DNA of 64,000 nucleotides from Treponema sp. J25 (lineage in GTDB: Bacteria; Spirochaetota; Spirochaetia; Treponematales; Breznakiellaceae), in contig NZ_PTQW01000012.1 of NCBI RefSeq assembly GCF_004343725.1, positions 124,001 to 188,000 on the forward strand, in the 5' to 3' direction. The notes below the pieces were generated by a model. It had not been told where the DNA came from and made no database searches. It worked only from the letters and a program-made list of their open reading frames with translations. Both the position numbers and the translations under genes were made by a program. This document shows positions 3,993 to 27,579 of the stretch, piece after piece. Each line of letters opens with the position of its first letter. The stretch's first letter is position 1.

Positions 3993-4026
3993 ATAATAAG
4001 CCTACCCCCCCCCCGAAATTTGTCAA
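3993..4026 (-). promoter_or_regulatory. Precursor B promoter with a G10 tract in the spacer
   Basis: TTGACA at 4026-4021, G10 at 4014-4005, TAGGCT at 4004-3999 (16-nt spacer), then TATTAT at 3998-3993. The copy A counterpart of the last box is TATCAT, so one of the two substitutions in the repeat improves a candidate -10 here. The G run has the same length as in copy A. Confidence 0.65.
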
Positions 4027-12455: not shown

Positions 12456-13388
12456 ATGCAAAAGCATCAAAAGAAAGCGCCCTTACCCCTCTGGACCGTG
12501 ACAAAGGCCTGGTGGTCCGACACAGCTGCCCAGGAATGCAGGGGGCTTAACTGGTTTTTTATCCTTACCATTTTTATAACATCTACCATCGCCATAGGTC
12601 TTCCCTTTGCCGCAAACCGCTGGAGGGATGCGGAAACCGCTTCCAAAACACGGCAGTACCCCGGTCTTGGGAATGCCTTCGAGGCTACGGCAGCTTCGGG
12701 TTTTGTGTTTTCCATCGACTCGGGGAAAGTAACTGCGGGCAATTCTACTACCCCCCTTGTTCTTACGGTTGGTGATTGGGATGTTATCGTGACTACCCAA
12801 GAAGATACGCCGAAAACACAGAAAGCCCCGACGACCGCAGGTCCCGGAAGCGGCAATGGGCGAAATCTTCTTCAGATCGGGCCAGACCGCTTTCTTGTGC
12901 GGAACGGGAAAACAGGCATCCAGGTCAGCGCTCCCCTCAAAGTCTTTGAAGGCTTTTCTTCGGATGTTCTAAAGCAGGCTGCTCAAAACCGTAAAACCCT
13001 TACGGATCTTATAGAAGGGATCCTGTTCGCCGCCGCATTTTCATCAATCCCGTCGATTATTTTATCCCTGTTCCCCTTGATGTTTGTGCAAAATCTCGCC
13101 TTTGTGGCAATCCTTGGCGTTATGCTTTCCTTTGCGGTGTACCGAAAGAAACTGGGAGACGATTCGGGACCGGCACTCAAGCCCCTGGAAGGAATAAAGA
13201 TGGCCGCCGCCATCATGGCGGGGCCTGCCTTTGTGGTTGGGCTCGCGGGGCTTTTTATACCGGCCCTGAAGGCTCCATTGTTATGGCTTGCCTATTCGTT
13301 TCTCGCCGGTATCCGCGTAGTAATCCTCTACACGAGCCGTTATCGCAGTGCAGGGCACCAAGGGCAGTATGATTCACCTATTTCATAA
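12456..13388 (+). CDS. DUF1189-like maltodextrin-utilisation membrane protein (YvdJ type)
   Basis: 310 residues. One N-terminal membrane span (FFILTIFITSTIAIGLPFAA), an outer loop of about 140 residues, then four hydrophobic segments (from about residue 185 to 295). The topology and the position behind malG match the DUF1189 family (B. subtilis YvdJ, pneumococcal MalA), found beside maltodextrin ABC genes. The molecular role of that family is not settled. It sits after the malG terminator, so it probably has its own promoter. There is no clear Shine-Dalgarno at the ATG, so the start is uncertain. Its 3' end overlaps the convergent amylase gene by 11 nt. Confidence 0.6.
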   Translation: MQKHQKKAPLPLWTVTKAWWSDTAAQECRGLNWFFILTIFITSTIAIGLPFAANRWRDAETASKTRQYPGLGNAFEATAASGFVFSIDSGKVTAGNSTTPLVLTVGDWDVIVTTQEDTPKTQKAPTTAGPGSGNGRNLLQIGPDRFLVRNGKTGIQVSAPLKVFEGFSSDVLKQAAQNRKTLTDLIEGILFAAAFSSIPSIILSLFPLMFVQNLAFVAILGVMLSFAVYRKKLGDDSGPALKPLEGIKMAAAIMAGPAFVVGLAGLFIPALKAPLLWLAYSFLAGIRVVILYTSRYRSAGHQGQYDSPIS

Positions 13389-15075
13389 CCTCGTATACCG
13401 CTGACTCCGCAGGATCCAGAGAAAGTGTCTCGCCTGCGGTCAGGACGGGGCGGCCCTTATTGGGCACTACCCCCTGGCTGCTCGTCCAGAGCAGGGCAAG
13501 TTGTACCCCCTGGGGGACCTTTACCGTACATTGTATGGTGTCAAGGTTGTGAAGCACCAGGACCCGCTGAGCGTCGGTTTCCCGCAGCCAGGCCAGCAGG
13601 TATGCACCATCGAAACCGGCCCAGGGGACAGCCGCTAAGGTTCCCTGGCGGATTGCGGCGCTTACCTGCCTGAGCTGACTGAGCCTCAGATAGTGCCGCA
13701 AAAGGCTCTGCGGATCCTTTAGCTGGGCCTGGACCGAGGGCGTCAGAGCGTTTTGCCCCGGTTCAATCTTACCAGAAGTTTTCGTCCAGGTAACGGTTGA
13801 TTGCGTATCCCCCTCGTTCCACAAAAAGGCATCCCGCCGGGCCACATCATCATTTTTATAGCGCCGGCCCGTCATGCCCAGCTCTTCGCCATAGTAAATG
13901 TAGGGAAGCCCCGGAAGGGTAAGGTACAGCGATGCGGCCAATTTTGCCCGTTTAAGGGCCAGCGCCTTGGAAGAACGGATGGGCTCCGGGTCCTCGGGAG
14001 CAATGGCATAACCCTTTACCGCGTCTACCCCAAGGCTTTGCAACAGGGAGCTCATAGGCCGATCCAGGTCATGGTTCGAAAGCAGGGGGGAGGGCACAAA
14101 ACCAGAAAAGCGCTGGTATTGTCGATAGGTGGTGGTACAGGTCTGTAAAAAGGTAGAAAGGCCTGTCCCTCGGACCGAATTCAAGATGAGGTTTGCCGTA
14201 GGAAAGTCGAAAAGGCCATCAAAAACTGAAGCATAGGAGCTTACTTCGGTAAGGGAGGTACTGAGGATCTCCCCGATAAAGTACACATCCGGCTTTATCC
14301 GCCGGGAAAAACGGCGCAGATCGTTCCAGAAAGTTTTATTCAACGCCAGGGTTTGGGTGCCGGGGGGAAATTCGTTCGGGTCAAAGGCGTGCTTGGCCGC
14401 ATCAAACCGAAAACCGTCCACCCCTTTTTGGAGCCAGAATTGCAGCACCCTTTTTAGTTCGTTTACCACATCCGTATTATCCAGATTGAGGTCTGGCATC
14501 CCCTCCCAGAAGGCCGCAAAATATTCGAATCTGGAGCCATCTGGCCGGGTGTAGGTGTAAAAACGGCCCATTCCCCCACTCCCATAGGTAAGGCGGACAT
14601 CCCGGGTCTTATAATAATTGACGTAGGGACTTGCAGCGGACCGCAGGGCATCCAAAAACCAGGGATGTTCCCGGGAGGTATGGTTAAATACCATATCCAG
14701 GATGATTTTTATGCCCCGTTTATGGGCCTCTGTCACGAGCCGCTCAAAATCAGCCATGGTTCCCAGCCGGGGATCGATGCTGTAATAATCCTTAACATCG
14801 TAGCCATGATAACTCGAGGCAGGATGAATCGGTGAGAGCCAGAGGGCACTGATACCCAGGTCATCGGCGGTGGCAGGATTCCCATCGTTCAGGTAGTCCA
14901 GTTTTTGTATGAGCCCCGGCAGGTCTCCATAACCGTCCCCGTCGGAATCAGCAAAAGAGTAGACTAACACCTGATACGCCGGTCCTGGAGCAGCCTGCCA
15001 CCAGGGGATATCCTGAGCCCAGAGGGAAACCCCCATCCCCAACAGAACAAATAATACCTGCCACAGACGACGCAT
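13378..15075 (-). CDS. Secreted alpha-amylase (GH13)
   Basis: 565 residues from ATG 15075, chosen because AAGGAGG lies 5 nt upstream and a signal peptide follows at once (MRRLWQVLFVLLGMGVSLWAQ). An in-frame TTG 11 codons upstream lacks these. GH13 regions: LDMVFNHTS, GFRFDAAKH (nucleophile Asp), FIGEILSTS (Glu) and LLSNHDLDR. LPYIYYGEELGM near the barrel end recalls the oligo-1,6-glucosidase/alpha-amylase type GH13 enzymes. It acts outside the cytoplasm on starch or long maltodextrins and so feeds the MalEFG importer. A 23-bp dyad sits just upstream of the ribosome site. Confidence 0.9.
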   Translation of the reverse strand: MRRLWQVLFVLLGMGVSLWAQDIPWWQAAPGPAYQVLVYSFADSDGDGYGDLPGLIQKLDYLNDGNPATADDLGISALWLSPIHPASSYHGYDVKDYYSIDPRLGTMADFERLVTEAHKRGIKIILDMVFNHTSREHPWFLDALRSAASPYVNYYKTRDVRLTYGSGGMGRFYTYTRPDGSRFEYFAAFWEGMPDLNLDNTDVVNELKRVLQFWLQKGVDGFRFDAAKHAFDPNEFPPGTQTLALNKTFWNDLRRFSRRIKPDVYFIGEILSTSLTEVSSYASVFDGLFDFPTANLILNSVRGTGLSTFLQTCTTTYRQYQRFSGFVPSPLLSNHDLDRPMSSLLQSLGVDAVKGYAIAPEDPEPIRSSKALALKRAKLAASLYLTLPGLPYIYYGEELGMTGRRYKNDDVARRDAFLWNEGDTQSTVTWTKTSGKIEPGQNALTPSVQAQLKDPQSLLRHYLRLSQLRQVSAAIRQGTLAAVPWAGFDGAYLLAWLRETDAQRVLVLHNLDTIQCTVKVPQGVQLALLWTSSQGVVPNKGRPVLTAGETLSLDPAESAVYEVMK

Positions 15076-15085
15076 ACAAACCTCC

Positions 15086-15108
15086 TTGATAAGAGCGCTC
15101 ACTATCAA
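15086..15108. promoter_or_regulatory. Dyad TTGATA-N11-TATCAA upstream of the secreted amylase
   Basis: TTGATA and TATCAA flank an inner palindrome GAGCGCTC. The element lies 10-33 nt before the amylase ATG, just upstream of the ribosome site. It could be an operator or an mRNA hairpin that controls translation. It does not resemble the TAAACCGGTTTA sites. Confidence 0.5.
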
Positions 15109-15278: not shown

Positions 15279-15307
15279 TTGCAGAAATACTCCGATACCC
15301 GTACTAT
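15279..15307 (+). promoter_or_regulatory. Promoter of the debranching enzyme-pullulanase fusion gene
   Basis: TTGCAG (15279-15284), 17-nt spacer, TACTAT (15302-15307). The predicted start of transcription is about 15314, compatible with the ATG at 15339 but leaving little reason for a start as late as 15553. Confidence 0.65.
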
Positions 15308-15316
15308 AGCATATAC

Positions 15317-15328
15317 TAAACCGGTTTT
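15317..15328. promoter_or_regulatory. LacI-type operator of the fusion gene
   Basis: TAAACCGGTTTT, nearly perfect dyad, 10 nt after the -10 box, exactly the spacing seen at malE (7969). It lies just before the GGAG ribosome site (15330-15333). Confidence 0.7.
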
Positions 15329-15338
15329 GGAGCCCCCT

Positions 15339-18300
15339 ATGGCATATTCGGTCGATTTTTTTTTCTTACAAAATTGAAAAAAAAGAAGTTTTACAACATG
15401 GGCTTGTTTATTCCCTTTCTGGCGGGGCCCTTCCCCTTCGATTTTCAAGATATCCTGTCCCTGAGGCTTCATGGCGTCGCATTGCCTGGGCCGATCGGGA
15501 ACAAGGGTATATAGACATTATTCCCTATGCCTATGGGAAGGGCGCGGGCTATGTGCAGGGCTCCCGGTGCAGACTTAAGGACATTCTCTGGGTCGATGGG
15601 CGGGGAAAGGTTCGCGAGGCCGATGAGATTACCCTTCGTCCCGGCGAGATTGAAATGTCCCGAACCGCCGGTGGGAAACTCCGGTATGCCCTGTTATTTG
15701 AAACCGGCTGCGTATGGATTTCCGTAGAAGTGCCGAAGCTCCAGAGAAAAAGCAGCCCCAACGGACACAGTGGAGGGGCGGGACTCATGCTTCCTGTAGT
15801 ATCAGAGCCCTGGCATTCCATGGGAACCCATGAGGGGTGGTTCCTCTATGGCCGGGAGGCCACTACATCACCCAATATTGTCCTAAGCGGGGCCAGCGAA
15901 GGAATCGTCCCGAGTCCAGAAGCAATCGCTATCGTAGGAAACGCTCCCTTCACCATAGATCACGTAAGAATATGTGATATACGGCGCCCCTTCGCACCAG
16001 AAGGGTATGGAATATATCGCATTATTCTCCTACTTCCCCTGGGAGAGAGGGAACAGGAAGAACTAAAAGGGCCTTTTCAGTATTACATTGCCTGGGGCGC
16101 TACCCTGGAGGAAGCGACAACTCGAGCATTGTATACAGCCAAAGAAAACCGTAAGGAGCAGCACCGCCAGCGCATAGAAACCCTTTTTAAGGGGTTCTCC
16201 TGGGACATGGGGGATCCCCTGGTAAACAAAGCCATCGGGTGGGCCGCCTTTTCTGGATGGAGCCTGGTTACCCGGGTCCAGGGGAAAGGCATCTGGGCGG
16301 GGCTCCCCTGGTTTCGGGATAACTGGGGGCGGGACACCTTTATCGCCCTCCCGGGGATATTGCTCGTAAGCGGTCAATTTCACGAGGCCCGAGAAATTAT
16401 CACCACCTTCGCGGGGTGGCAGGATACCAATCCTGGGAGTCCAACCTATGGTCGCATTCCTAACCGCTGGCGCAGTCCTGAGGATGTCATCTACAACACC
16501 GTCGATGGGACCCTCTGGTTTATTCGGGAAGTGTGGGAATACGGCCAATACACGGGAGACCTGGCGTTTCTTCATTCTATGGCAGAGGTCGTATTCCAGG
16601 CCCTTGATGCGGACATGGACCGTTGCGATACCTTTCATTTCTTGCTCCACGACCATGCGGACACCTGGATGGATGCCCGCATCCGGGGAAAGGAGCCCTG
16701 GTCAGAGCGGGGGAGCCGGGCGGTAGAAGTACAGGCCCTCTGGTACACGGCCCTCTGCTGTGGGGCTGCCCTCGCACACCTGGCGGGGGACTTTCAGCGG
16801 GAATCCCGGTATCAAGAATTTGCTCGAACCCTAAAAGAAAATTTCCGGCGATACTTCTGGTACCCCGAGTATGGCCGTCTGGCAGATCGTCTTTTACCCC
16901 AGGATAGCAACGAAGAACCCAGTGAAACAGCGGCAGACCTTCGCTGCCGTCCCAATGGGCTCATCGCCCTCCTGGCCACGGCCATTCTTCCCCAGGAAGA
17001 TCAACTTTTACCTGAAGAAATCATGCAACAGGTCCTGGTTGATGCGGTACAGAATCTTCTGTATCCCTATGGAATAGCAAGCCTTTCCCAGGAGGATCCC
17101 CTCTTTCATCCCCATCATGAGTGGCCTGGCCAGTACCACAAGGATGCGGCATATCACAATGGCACCATCTGGCAGTGGAACGCCGGCGCCGTAATATACG
17201 CCCTTCTTCGTTTTGGAAAGGGTGATATAGCCTGGCAACTCACGAAGGAACTGGCCCGCCAGATCATGCAGGAGGGGGCGGCGGGGACCCTGGGAGAAAA
17301 TCTCCATGCCCACCCTTCGGCGGATGGGAGGATTATCCACTCGGGCACTTACTCTCAGGCATGGAGTGTCTCCGAATATACCCGGACCATCTTTCAGGAT
17401 TGGCTTGGTATACGCCCCCGCTTATTGGAAAACAAACTTATCGTCGCGCCCCAGCTCCCCCCAGGTCATAATCGGGTAGTCGGCAGCCAGCAGGCAGGTC
17501 CCTGGCACATTTCCGTGGGTCTTTCAAAAGGGCAAAACTGTCTTCACTATACCTTAAAGGTGGAGGAGAAAGGGAACCCTTCCGCGGGGGCCGTATTTGA
17601 TGCTCCCCAAAGGGTGACCCAGGGAGATCCCTTTTCTTCTCAGTCTCCGGGGCCACCTCTCCTAGAGATCCAGGTCCTTCACGAAGGGATAGAGCGGATC
17701 TGGCAGTTCCATGTTGAGCAAGGTAAGTCCTACGAGGTAACGCTCAACCTGGATACCATGGAATTCTCGTATCTTTCTGGAGAGAAGAAACGGCCGACCT
17801 GCATCCGGCCGGTGCTGAAGCATCGATTTTTCTCAGATCTTCCGGACCTATCCTTCTGTGTCCCCCGCCTCCCCCCCTGGAATCTTCCGTTCCGCTGCAG
17901 GAATGCCCTAGAAAAGGCGATACTCGGTAACACCTACAATGGGGGACCCATAGCAATCCTAAAGGAATGGTACGATTCTGCCGATTTTGCCCGCCAGTTC
18001 CACACCGACGAAAGGCTCGGAGCTCGTTACCGTCCGGAGGCTACCGAATTCAAGCTCTGGTCCCCCGTAGCCCAGGAAGTACAGCTCTGTCTGTATGAAC
18101 AGGGTACGGGGGGAAGTCCCTTTGCAATAGTTCCCATGCACATTAGCCCACGGGGCGTATGGTCCTGTCAGGTGGCAGGGGACCTTCACGGGACCTATTA
18201 CACTTATCGCCTTCGCATTTTCTCCCTTTTCCGGGAAACCATCGACCCCTATGCAATTACATCGGGAGTAAACGGCCAGCGGGGCATGGTGGTCGACCTT

Positions 18301-20154
18301 TCCCGCCTTGAACCCGAAGGGTGGAATAGTTTTACCACACCCACCCTGGCAAAAGCAAACAACGCGATTATCTGGGAAGCCCATATCCGGGACCTTACCT
18401 GCCATCCTACCTGGCAGGGCCCTGAGGAACTGCGGGGCACCTTTCTCGGCGCAGCCACAAAGGGCACTAGCTACCAGGATGCGTCGGGGACAGGTATCCC
18501 GACGGGACTGGATTACCTCAAGGCTCTGGGGATTACCCATGTGCAGCTTTTACCCATCTTTGACTTTGTTTCGGTGGACGAAACTCGGGTCCGGGAACCG
18601 GAGTATCGCAACCGGAAAGAGGGAGGAGCTTTTAATTGGGGGTACGACCCGGGGAACTACGGTGTTCCAGAAGGATCCTATGCCACCAATCCCTTCGATG
18701 GAGCCTGCCGCATACGGGAGTTGCGACAGCTCGTTCTTGCCCTGGGACAGGCGGGCATGGGCGTTATCATGGACGTGGTGTATAACCATGTACCGGATTT
18801 TCGTCGTTCTGCCCTGGAAGCCTGCGTACCAGGCTATTACTTCAGGGGGCGGCGAGATTCAGGCGCCGGGGATGACACGGCCAGCGAACGGTACATGTTC
18901 CGCAAGTACATGAAGGATACCCTTATTCATTGGATTACCACCTACAAACTGTGCGGGTTTCGCTTCGATCTTATGGGACTCCATGATGTCCACACCATGC
19001 GGGAAATTGAAAAGGCCCTGCGTCACCGTAAGCCGGACATCCTTCTTTACGGTGAAGGCTGGGACATGTGCGGCCTTTCCCGGCCGGTCATGGCTTCTCA
19101 GCGCAATATCCATCTTCTTAAAGGTATCGGGATGTTCAATGATGCCTTTCGGGACGGTGTAAAGGGTTCTGTGTTTCACGCTTCAGAAGGGGGCTGGATC
19201 CATGGAGAATCGGGATGGGAAGAGGCGGTAAAGTTCGGCCTTGTGGGTGCCGTTCGCCATCCCCAGGTACACAATAAAAAGGTGATAGGAACGGCCCGGC
19301 CTGGACCCTGGTCAGAATATACCTGGAAAAGCATAAACTACCTTGAAGTCCACGACAACCTTACCCTCTTTGACAAACTCCAGCTGGTTGAGCCTGGCCA
19401 ATCGATGGACTATTACGAAGGGATGCAGCGATTTGCGATGACGTTGCTCTTCTGTTCCCAGGGAATAGTGCTCATGCATGGGGGTATGGAGTTCTGCCGA
19501 ACCAAGGAAGTTCCGGCCCAGTGGATTCAAGAAGGGGGGATTGATAAATGTGTGGCCCTTACCGAACAGAACGGCGGGGAAGATTTCGCCCCTGCAGGAG
19601 GAGGGCTCCCCCAAAACTTATCGGTTCGTCTTTTCTGCCATGATTCCTACAAAGCGGGGGACCTGTTGAATAGTTTGAACTGGGAACGGGCGCTCCAGCA
19701 CCGGGAAACCGTGGCGTATGTGCGGGGCCTCATAGCCCTGCGAAAAAAGCATCCGCTCCTTCGCCTGGAAAGGGGCAAAGAAGTGCGGCGGGCCTTGCGG
19801 TTTATGTCCAGTCCTCCAGGGACTCTGGTGTGGCACCTTGATGGTCAGAGGATACGAAAAAAGGAAGCCCCCTTGCTCATAGTCGCCAACCACAACCGTA
19901 CGGCAGTCCCGGTTATCCTTCCCGGGGGACAGTGGGAAATCCTTGCCGAAAGCAGCGAGGCCTTTATCAATTGGGTAGCCCTGGGGGAGGATTCTATCGC
20001 TGGTGTATATGTGCAGGAACCATACCGCAAGGCCCATGCCCCCCAAAGGGTGGAGCCCCTTGCTGTGGGGGACCCCCCACAGGTAAAAGCATCTCCCCTT
20101 GTATCGGCGACCCTTTTGGCGGCACCCCGGAGTTGTCTCATTCTCCGAAGGTGA
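15339..20154 (+). CDS. Glycogen-debranching-enzyme/type I pullulanase fusion; start out of frame at a T9 tract
   Basis: One polypeptide of about 1600 residues with two debranching modules. The first ~700 residues resemble amylo-alpha-1,6-glucosidase (GH133-like; GLPWFRDNWGRDTFIALPG, DHADTWMDARIRG, HKDAAYHNGTIWQWNAG). The C-terminal ~650 are a CBM48/GH13 type I pullulanase (FNWGYDPGNYGVPEGSY, IMDVVYNHV, GFRFDLMGL, YGEGWDM, EVHDNLT). No signal peptide, so cytoplasmic. The frame is open back to 15308 with no ATG; the first usable codon in frame is GTG 15553. An ATG at 15339 with GGAG 6 nt upstream (MAYSVDFFF) reads into this frame if T9 (15356-15364) were T8, giving a sensible N-terminus. So this is a frameshift, a slippage site or a sequence error. 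Confidence 0.88.
15356..15364 (+). repeat. T9 homopolymer at codon ~6 of the fusion gene
   Basis: Nine T in a row. With T9, the ATG at 15339 stops at TGA 15375-15377; with T8 it continues into the 1600-codon frame. Tracts of this length are prone to replication and transcriptional slippage. Confidence 0.8.
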
Positions 20155-24273: not shown

Positions 24274-27084
24274 CTATAACTTGAGCATCACCGCCGTAAG
24301 GGGCTGGACCGTTACTTCCTGATCCTGGATGTCGAGGCCCGTGGGCTGGCGAACCCCCTCAGGTCGGGCCTCGTCGGCATCCACCAGAATCCTGGCCGAG
24401 GTAAGATTCATGCCGGTTTTAAAGGTGACCGGTTCATCAAAGTTAGCATTCACGAGCATGATCAGCGTGGTACCCTTATAACTTACCTGGTACCCCAGGG
24501 CAAGCTGACTTTCATGGGGTATTTGTTTCATGGCCTTCTCGATAAGGGCCGCATCGCCGATACGGAGGGCCTCTTCCTGACGGCGGATATGGATAAGGCC
24601 CTTCACCCATTCTGCCATGGCAAGATACTCTTTAGGGGCATTCCAGATGAACTGGTTGATATCGTCGGATGCATCGTAGCTATTATGAACGAAGGGACCG
24701 ATTACTTCGGTGGTGGAATTCTTCTTCGGTTTACTGCGGCCCCGTTCACAGCCCCCGTGGATAAACGCGATGGGCTGACCCGTAAGCACCATAAACTGGG
24801 CAAGTTTTGCCCGGGCGGCAATTTCGGCCCGTTCCTGGGGATACTGGGGATCCAGACCCACATTAAAAGCGATGTTGTCTGCCAGGGTAAGGTTATCGTG
24901 GGCAGAAACATAATTCATCGAATCGCCGGGATCATCGGCCTTGTAATTGAGCATGGGCCGGCCCGCCAAATTTTCGAAGATCATCCTGGTATTCATAGGT
25001 CTACCGGTAACGAAGGCCTTGCGCTTATCATCGAGCCCTCCGCCCTTAAGGATATCCCGGAACTCATCGTTAAAGACGGCGACCTCATTGGTTTTGAGCA
25101 TGTAATTCTGGTCCAGCACCTCAATCTTGGGACCCCGGTACATTTTCCATCCTTCCCCTTCGAACAAAACATCCTCTTTTCCGGGGAGGTTCTCGGCAAT
25201 CCGGCGTCGCCCATCAAGGATGGTCTTTGCATCGATGAGCCCCATGAGATCGAAGCGGAATCCATCAACCTTATATTCATCTACCCAATAATAAAGGGAA
25301 TCCTGGATAAGCTTGCTTGCCATGTACCGTTCAGAGGCCACATCGTTGCCACACCCCGACTGGCTAATAAAAGCGCCCCGGGCATCCCGCCGGTAGTAAT
25401 AGCCGGGCACCAGGTTTTCGAATATGGCGGTAGTGGCGGTATGGTTGTACACCACATCAAGGATTACACCGATACCCGCCTTGTGCAATTCCTTGATGAG
25501 GGTCTTTAGCTCTACAATGCGGTTATAGGGGTCCTTCGGGTTAGAAGCGAACCAGCCCTCGGGGGTAAAGTAGTTGTGGGGATCATAGCCCCAGTTGTAA
25601 TTGTTGTCATTGGCCCGGCCGGTGGCTTCGTATTCGGTTTTCAGTTCATTGGTATAGTAGAAATTCAACACCGGCATAAGCTGGACATGGGTTACCCCCA
25701 GTTCCTTTAGATAGGGGATCTTTTCGATAAAGGCCAGATAGGAACCGGGTCGATTCTTTACTCCCGAGTCAGGAGAAATCGTAAAATCCCGGACAGAAAT
25801 TTCGTAGATAATTGCATCTTCCCGCTTTTCTAGTTTTACATCCGTATAGCCTTCCCAGCCTCCCATAGGCTGGGCCTTCGCAGGATTAATAATGGCCCCC
25901 CGACCAATACCGCTTCCCACAAAGGCATCCATGGCCTTCGCATAGGGATCCAGGGCAACCACTTCCTTTTTTCCAAAGGACAGCACATATTCATAGAAAA
26001 GCCCATCGGGGTCCCGGGCATTAAAGACCCCAGACCATACACCGGTTCCTTCATTCTTATTCAGTTCGAGGGTGTAATCTGCCTTTTCCGCCAGGCTTTG
26101 CTTAAAGAGCCGGACCTGTACCCGGCTTGCAAAGGGAGACCAAAGACGGAATTCTACGGATTTATGGGTTGCATCATAGAGGGCCCCTAACTGATAGTCC
26201 CGGGGAGGGACGATGGCATCGGCGAGTGAGGCCACCAGGGCCGTGGTATCCACCGGGACGGGAGCAAAAAAGTCCGGATGAGCTACCTGGATCGGCCTAT
26301 CCAGCGGCACTGGCTGAGCAAGCAGGAGCTTTACCTTTTTCGCATAGTTGTTTTGTTTGTTTTCCGGATCCGCCGCATTGACCGCATCCAGCACTGCTAC
26401 CGTACCACTACCATCGGCAAAGGAAACCGTAAAGCCGCTATCTCCCTTTTCGGTGGCAAGACCATAGCGTCCTGAAAGGTCCAGGACTATTTCAGTTTGA
26501 GAAACGAGTCGGGCCATTTCGATACTGGGCACATAGGGGCCATAGGGATAGGTTTTCTGGTCCCCCTGGAATACCACCCATTCATTAGAGGCAGTGGCAT
26601 CCAGAATTCGGTCCTGTTCTCCATCCTTCTCCCAACCTGAGTCCTTTCGGGGGATGATGCCAAAGAGACCATCGCTTCCAATGGTTTTGACCCCATAAGT
26701 AGACCCGTCTTTCTTAAATCGAATGTAGCCAACCCCTTCTACCACCTGAAGATCCCTGGTCTTATCCCACACCGCAGCCCCATCGCCACCGGGGACGGCC
26801 CACAGCCAGAAACCCCAGGGCTCGTAATTCCTGTCATTGCGAAGGTAGTATACCACCACTTCATCGGGCCCTGGCTTAAGGGCCTCGTGGGCGGGAATAA
26901 TGAGATTCATCTTTGGATGCCCCATGTTCTCGATGGTACCGGGGGCAACGGTCTGGTAGGTCGGTATCGAAGGCCCGGCGATCGTCCCGCCAGACCCCTC
27001 CGATTCCCCGGTGCTGGTGCAGCCAAAGAAGACTGCCAGGAATACGCTTCCTGCAAGCACAAGCATGTTCCGTTTTTGCATCAT
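24274..27084 (-). CDS. Pullulanase type I lipoprotein (CBM41-like + CBM48 + GH13)
   Basis: 936 residues. A lipoprotein signal peptide ends in VFFGC (Cys ~22), so it should be anchored on the envelope, where it cuts alpha-1,6 branches of pullulan, amylopectin or glycogen. The N-terminal part (about 60-170) looks like the CBM41/PUD starch-binding domain (VVVYYLRNDRNYEPWGFWLW). A CBM48-type domain follows (LWSPFASRVQVRLF), then the GH13_14 catalytic domain with the type I signature YNWGYDPHNY, ILDVVYNHTA, GFRFDLMGLIDA (nucleophile), FEGEGWK and SAHDNLTL. AGGAGG lies 6 nt before the ATG. It lies 10 nt behind the broken pfkB gene, whose promoter and operator probably still drive it. Confidence 0.93.
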   Translation of the reverse strand: MMQKRNMLVLAGSVFLAVFFGCTSTGESEGSGGTIAGPSIPTYQTVAPGTIENMGHPKMNLIIPAHEALKPGPDEVVVYYLRNDRNYEPWGFWLWAVPGGDGAAVWDKTRDLQVVEGVGYIRFKKDGSTYGVKTIGSDGLFGIIPRKDSGWEKDGEQDRILDATASNEWVVFQGDQKTYPYGPYVPSIEMARLVSQTEIVLDLSGRYGLATEKGDSGFTVSFADGSGTVAVLDAVNAADPENKQNNYAKKVKLLLAQPVPLDRPIQVAHPDFFAPVPVDTTALVASLADAIVPPRDYQLGALYDATHKSVEFRLWSPFASRVQVRLFKQSLAEKADYTLELNKNEGTGVWSGVFNARDPDGLFYEYVLSFGKKEVVALDPYAKAMDAFVGSGIGRGAIINPAKAQPMGGWEGYTDVKLEKREDAIIYEISVRDFTISPDSGVKNRPGSYLAFIEKIPYLKELGVTHVQLMPVLNFYYTNELKTEYEATGRANDNNYNWGYDPHNYFTPEGWFASNPKDPYNRIVELKTLIKELHKAGIGVILDVVYNHTATTAIFENLVPGYYYRRDARGAFISQSGCGNDVASERYMASKLIQDSLYYWVDEYKVDGFRFDLMGLIDAKTILDGRRRIAENLPGKEDVLFEGEGWKMYRGPKIEVLDQNYMLKTNEVAVFNDEFRDILKGGGLDDKRKAFVTGRPMNTRMIFENLAGRPMLNYKADDPGDSMNYVSAHDNLTLADNIAFNVGLDPQYPQERAEIAARAKLAQFMVLTGQPIAFIHGGCERGRSKPKKNSTTEVIGPFVHNSYDASDDINQFIWNAPKEYLAMAEWVKGLIHIRRQEEALRIGDAALIEKAMKQIPHESQLALGYQVSYKGTTLIMLVNANFDEPVTFKTGMNLTSARILVDADEARPEGVRQPTGLDIQDQEVTVQPLTAVMLKL

Positions 27085-27549: not shown

Positions 27550-27579
27550 ATTATAAACCGGTTTAGCACTTTTTGTAAA
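27550..27579 (-). promoter_or_regulatory. Promoter and LacI-type operator of the pfkB-pullulanase unit
   Basis: Minus strand: TTTACA (27579-27574), 18-nt spacer, TATAAT (27555-27550). The perfect 12-bp palindrome TAAACCGGTTTA (27554-27565) overlaps the spacer and the -10, a classical position for repression. It matches the sites at 7969 and 15317. Confidence 0.75.

Follow-up and report, generated by a model that had tools for sequence, protein, structure and literature searches.

A run of nine T behind the start codon puts a fused debranching enzyme gene out of frame in Treponema sp. J25: possible rescue by transcriptional slippage

Introduction

In the deposited sequence of Treponema sp. J25, a long debranching enzyme gene lies out of frame with the start codon that precedes it, i.e., a run of nine T (T9) a few codons behind the ATG separates the two. 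This raises the question of where the gene begins, whether its frame is broken in the genome itself or only in the assembly, and by what means the protein could still be made. The stretch analysed, called the window here, comprises 64,000 nucleotides of a 3.18 Mb draft in 66 contigs, the single genome of its genus in the comparison.

The gene and its neighbourhood

From GTG 15553 to 20154 on the forward strand, the gene runs for 1533 codons without an internal stop or a second frameshift, and the same frame is stop-free over 15310–20154, which gives an open frame of 1614 amino acids. With residues counted from GTG 15553, PF06202 (GDE_C, amylo-alpha-1,6-glucosidase) matches residues 242–609 with 220.8 bits (cut-off 21) and TIGR02104 (type I pullulanase) matches residues 812–1470 with 598.6 bits (cut-off 504.5). 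With both models above their cut-offs, the enzyme is a GH133-like amylo-1,6-glucosidase fused to a type I pullulanase. The motifs RDNWGRDT, GFRFDLMG, YGEGW and HDN, covering the catalytic regions of both halves, are kept. The same fusion adjoins the same divergent amylase at ten orthologous loci.

13378–15108, reverse strand: divergent alpha-amylase gene, the marker of the conserved locus (tblastn, same neighbour at all 10 orthologous loci, 63–82% identity).
15553–20154, forward strand: rest of the enzyme, GDE_C plus type I pullulanase, from profile matches and motifs; no conventional in-frame start precedes GTG 15553.

A genome search, with three matches in total, returned no second GDE_C match. 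Near the fusion gene, at about 24730–26199 on the reverse strand, lies a second pullulanase-like gene, whose 945-codon open frame shares 38% identity with the pullulanase half. The fusion is patchily distributed: 43 of the 394 genomes of the order match the N-terminal half of the enzyme, and the listed open frames with a match include some of about 1500 amino acids (the length of the fusion) and others of about 750–800.

The start codon

The earlier note had described a promoter, an operator, a GGAG site and ATG 15339 in line ahead of the gene. This arrangement is borne out by comparison with the orthologues and not by a consensus scan, which found no sigma-70 match.

15279–15307, forward strand: probable promoter, TTGCAG - 17 nt - TACTAT, read from the sequence; the orthologues have TTGCCC or TTGCTT - 17 nt - TAGTAT.
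15318–15327, forward strand: palindrome AAACCGGTTT, probable LacI-type operator; most orthologues have it in the corresponding position.
15329–15332, forward strand: GGAG ribosome-binding site 6 nt before the ATG, with the same spacing in the same-family genomes G042, G131, G144 and G148.
15339–15377, forward strand: ATG start and its 12-codon frame as sequenced; the position of the ATG is conserved in the orthologues.
15450–15552, forward strand: conserved N-terminal residues RYPVPEASWRRIAWADREQGYIDIIPYAYGKGAGY, with invariant W, D, G, D, G and G in 10 sequences and beta-strands in the structural model.

The block from the −10-like region through the ATG is conserved in the orthologues; TAAACCGGTTTTGGAG - 6 nt - ATG precedes the gene in the four same-family genomes named above, and close variants of it are found in genomes of two other families. 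At least eight orthologues encode the protein in one uninterrupted open reading frame from the conserved ATG, which continues with ~17 residues and then (S)RR(I/V)AW(A/G)D..GGY(I/L)D. In the window, the residues encoded upstream of GTG 15553 include RIAWADREQGYID, and SWRRIAWADREQGYIDI, encoded there in the enzyme frame, is the counterpart of the RR(I/V)AWADxxGGYID of the orthologues. An alignment of ten N-terminal domains places six invariant residues upstream of GTG 15553, and an AlphaFold model of the domain (mean pLDDT 74) places three beta-strands there. A Foldseek search with this domain gave weak but sensible matches, namely the N-terminal super-sandwich domains of glucodextranase, glucoamylase, GH94 and GH63. 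The codon score of the enzyme frame is +13 bits for 15475–15552.

Alternatively, the protein might begin at GTG 15553, the upstream ATG being a decoy or the start of a leader peptide. This GTG is the first conventional start codon in frame and has GGAAGG about 12 nt upstream; however, a protein beginning there would lose the six invariant residues and the three predicted beta-strands, and the orthologues begin at the conserved ATG. As such a start would damage the N-terminal domain, ATG 15339 is taken as the start, and GTG 15553 is rejected as highly improbable in this role, since both the ATG and the residues ahead of the GTG are conserved. Judged from the conserved upstream block and the conserved residues before GTG 15553, the gene starts at ATG 15339, and the same comparison excludes GTG 15553 as the ancestral start. 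The start and the break at T9 are thus the parts of the earlier reading that the orthologues support.

The palindrome AAACCGGTTT occurs at 12 genomic sites, compared with 2 for a reversed control pattern, and the sites include 15318–15327 and 27555–27564 of the window. At C25:28980 it is carried within TATACTAAACCGGTTTAATGGAGGATTTATG, in the same promoter-operator-SD layout as at the debranching gene. The sites probably mark a LacI-type carbohydrate regulon. Separately, the orthologue in G042 (L112) contains a tandem low-complexity ASGSPTSNVPASAPPASGGPAD linker within its N-terminal domain.

The frame break

15356–15364, forward strand: T9 tract, the site of the frame break and the sole slippery run between the ATG and the stop.
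15365–15450, forward strand: extra segment of ambiguous coding status, roughly 84–85 nt longer than the orthologues, pLDDT below 50.
15376–15384, forward strand: GAAAAAAAA, a perfect inverted repeat of TTTTTTTTC at 15357–15365 (a T8C/GA8 pair), with no unusual folding energy.

A direct count gives exactly nine T at 15356–15364, and ATG 15339 reads 12 codons, MAYSVDFFFLQN, before TGA 15375–15377, which confirms the claim that nine T shift the frame. Deleting one T links ATG 15339 to the enzyme frame with no stop between, and the accompanying claim that eight T would make the frame continuous is likewise correct. From 15310 onwards, GTG 15553 is the first ATG, GTG or TTG codon of the enzyme frame; thus, as sequenced, the residues between the tract and 15553 are unreachable from any conventional in-frame start. 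With the start at ATG 15339, the frame is truly broken in the sequence as given. The frame change must fall between 15339 and 15377, where T9 is the only slippery site. Runs of at least nine T or A are rare (49 placed tracts in 3.18 Mb, ~1 per 65 kb), and the chance of one falling within the 36 nt from ATG to stop is about 6e-4, so that the break is almost certainly at T9.

Behind the tract, the distance from the ATG to the RR codons is 136 nt in the window and 51 nt in same-family orthologues, i.e., 85 nt longer. This extra segment of about 28 codons is absent from all aligned orthologues and shifts the frame by one relative to them. Over 15365–15474, frame 1 scores +7 bits and frame 2 +13 bits, both being possible as coding and frame 2 looking no less protein-like than the frame of the enzyme, and the first 27 residues are predicted to be disordered (pLDDT below 50 in the AlphaFold model). 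A derivation of the segment from another place in the genome was rejected, as a search for a copy of the ~85 nt elsewhere in the genome gave no match better than chance. As the coding nature of 15365–15450 is unproven, the original in-frame state is not certain, and the enzyme frame is certain only from about 15450. The view that the upstream frame is protein-like holds for about 15450–15552, given the codon score at 15475–15552 and the invariant residues, and is uncertain for 15365–15450, where two frames score alike and the segment is found in no homologue. The earlier note had also proposed that homologues lacking the upstream 70 residues would refute its reading; the last ~45 of these residues, including the six invariant ones, are present in homologues, whereas ~28 are absent.

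Reliability of the base count

Consensus errors are commonest at homopolymers, and a miscount is one rival, i.e., the genome really has eight T at this place in the draft and the gene is ordinary. A single-base change gives a continuous frame from the conserved start, every orthologue frame is intact, and a few-percent error rate at runs of nine would yield about one case among roughly 29 coding runs. Against this, codon use was scored on both sides of A/T runs of at least eight and G/C runs of at least seven, over about 0.46 Mb of contiguous sequence plus the surroundings of all genomic A/T runs of at least nine. Strong coding signal was found on both flanks of 54 tracts, 49 of which are in frame; the other five proved on inspection to be gene boundaries, e.g., an overlapping lptF/lptG-like pair (L062) and the GTG start of a new gene (L073). 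None of the 49 comparable coding tracts elsewhere in the genome is thus frameshifted, which makes systematic miscounting unlikely and lends no support to an assembly-wide homopolymer error. In addition, 28 of the 49 genomic A/T runs of at least nine lie inside long open reading frames, and all 28 are read through. We regard an isolated miscount at this one tract as somewhat doubtful.

Rescue by slippage and its rivals

Our tentative first choice is a real frameshift at T9 that is partly rescued by transcriptional slippage, a "pseudo-pseudogene". On this reading, the tract most likely did gain one T in the genome itself, and recently, while the rest of the gene stayed intact. An A/T run of nine or more interrupts the frame, which the loss or gain of bases in the mRNA would restore. 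T9 would be long enough for slippage by bacterial RNA polymerase: most transcripts, decoded in the ordinary way, would yield the 12-residue peptide only, and the minority of mRNAs losing one U (or gaining two) would encode the full debranching enzyme of ~1604 residues. A single extra T would thus both break the frame and create the slippage-prone run. T runs of at least seven cause the RNA polymerase of E. coli to slip, and on T8 a one-base deletion restored about 10% of reporter expression (PMC6260861); a one-base loss is also the direction required at T9 here. Partial rescue is therefore plausible from the published slippage at T7–T9, and the intact state of the 1533 codons agrees with a gene that still yields its product or was very recently broken. 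In many genomes, A/T runs become disfavoured once they reach nine (Baranov et al. 2005, PMC1088944). The same study described 9A/9T "pseudo pseudogenes", where the mutational step from eight to nine disrupts the frame and also renders the run slippery. The present locus resembles these in an open reading frame broken at nine A/T, intact homologues and a frame that a base change in the mRNA restores; however, their example went from A8 to A9 and rested on a comparison of strains, whereas here T9 stands beside the start codon of a single strain. Slippage rescue is proven for Citrobacter rodentium tssM1 (A11; PMC4256274) and, according to PMC1088944 and PMC5009743, for the U run of Shigella flexneri mxiE. 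The full-length protein in both cases requires RNA polymerase slippage at a homopolymer, as proposed here; in contrast to our sequence-based and unconserved case, both rest on experiments, and a further genus has the tssM mechanism as well. The event is of a known kind, both miscounted bases and slippage-bypassed frameshifts being known phenomena.

Several observations count against slippage rescue. Runs of at least nine A/T are tolerated in this genome, given the 28 of 49 inside long open reading frames; in Borrelia, too, long A/T runs show no sign of counter-selection (PMC1088944). Moreover, none of the aligned orthologous loci carries a T9 tract, so that the arrangement of tract and reading frame is not conserved among them. 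The ambiguous coding status of 15365–15450 counts here too, as does the mixed outcome of the relative-rate test given below. There is no sign that T9 is programmed, the tract being unconserved and the region without extra folding. A programmed ribosomal frameshift with a hairpin was rejected: the inverted repeat is present, and the region folds no better than shuffled sequences (z +1.3). Such a frameshift would also need to be +1 (or −2), and the U run would offer no known slow or stop codon in the A site.

Replication slippage may instead alter the tract length heritably, in which case the deposited sequence caught a contingency gene in its OFF (or low) state. The tract stands just behind the start codon, the classical position, and long C tracts (C10, C13) occur elsewhere in this genome, in intergenic repeats resembling variable promoters. 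However, it would be unusual for a contingency gene to encode an intracellular debranching enzyme. The tract consists of A/T and reaches only nine bases, the orthologues lack it, and the one genome of the genus in the comparison gives no positive support. Homopolymer contingency genes of host-associated bacteria likewise have a homopolymer near the start codon that can switch the frame, but most of them are surface or restriction genes whose tracts have been shown to vary in length, whereas here we have a metabolic enzyme and one sequence. Phase variation is unlikely. Rather improbable, too, is a recent inactivation, i.e., a young pseudogene whose decay may have started with the ~85-nt segment behind the start. 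This segment is absent from the orthologues, changes the frame by one and has an ambiguous coding frame of its own; the second pullulanase-like gene at about 24730–26199 would also fit, and a relative-rate test gave slightly faster protein change with the f5 outgroups, though not with another outgroup family, a control gene being inconsistent as well. The 1533 codons without further damage, the kept catalytic motifs and the lack of a second GDE_C match in the genome speak against it. We thus rank slippage rescue ahead of a miscount, followed by phase variation, recent inactivation and, last, a start at GTG 15553. It is very unlikely that T9, at codon 7, sets the expression of the genome's only amylo-1,6-glucosidase, by polymerase slippage or by heritable changes in tract length, such that the breakdown of storage polysaccharide would vary between cells or with nucleotide supply.

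Long C tracts were recorded in their own right. Two C10 tracts in the window, at 2336–2345 and 4005–4014, follow TATGATAAG/TATAATAAG at a distance of a few bases, within repeat copies that are nearly identical, and both are candidate phase-variable promoters. The genome has 14 C tracts of at least nine, among them two C13 in another near-identical pair of intergenic repeats (C37:4934 and C41:2693) and a C18 at a contig end (C53:27517).

Implications

In either case, the orthologues establish where this enzyme family truly starts in these spirochaetes, and they reveal a conserved operator-like site over the ribosome-binding region. If T9 is wrong, the tract is to be corrected and the annotated start moved from GTG 15553 to ATG 15339. 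If the genome does carry nine T, slipped transcripts, a minority of the total, are probably the source of a central carbohydrate enzyme. The locus would then be one more natural "pseudo-pseudogene" and would caution against declaring such genes dead.
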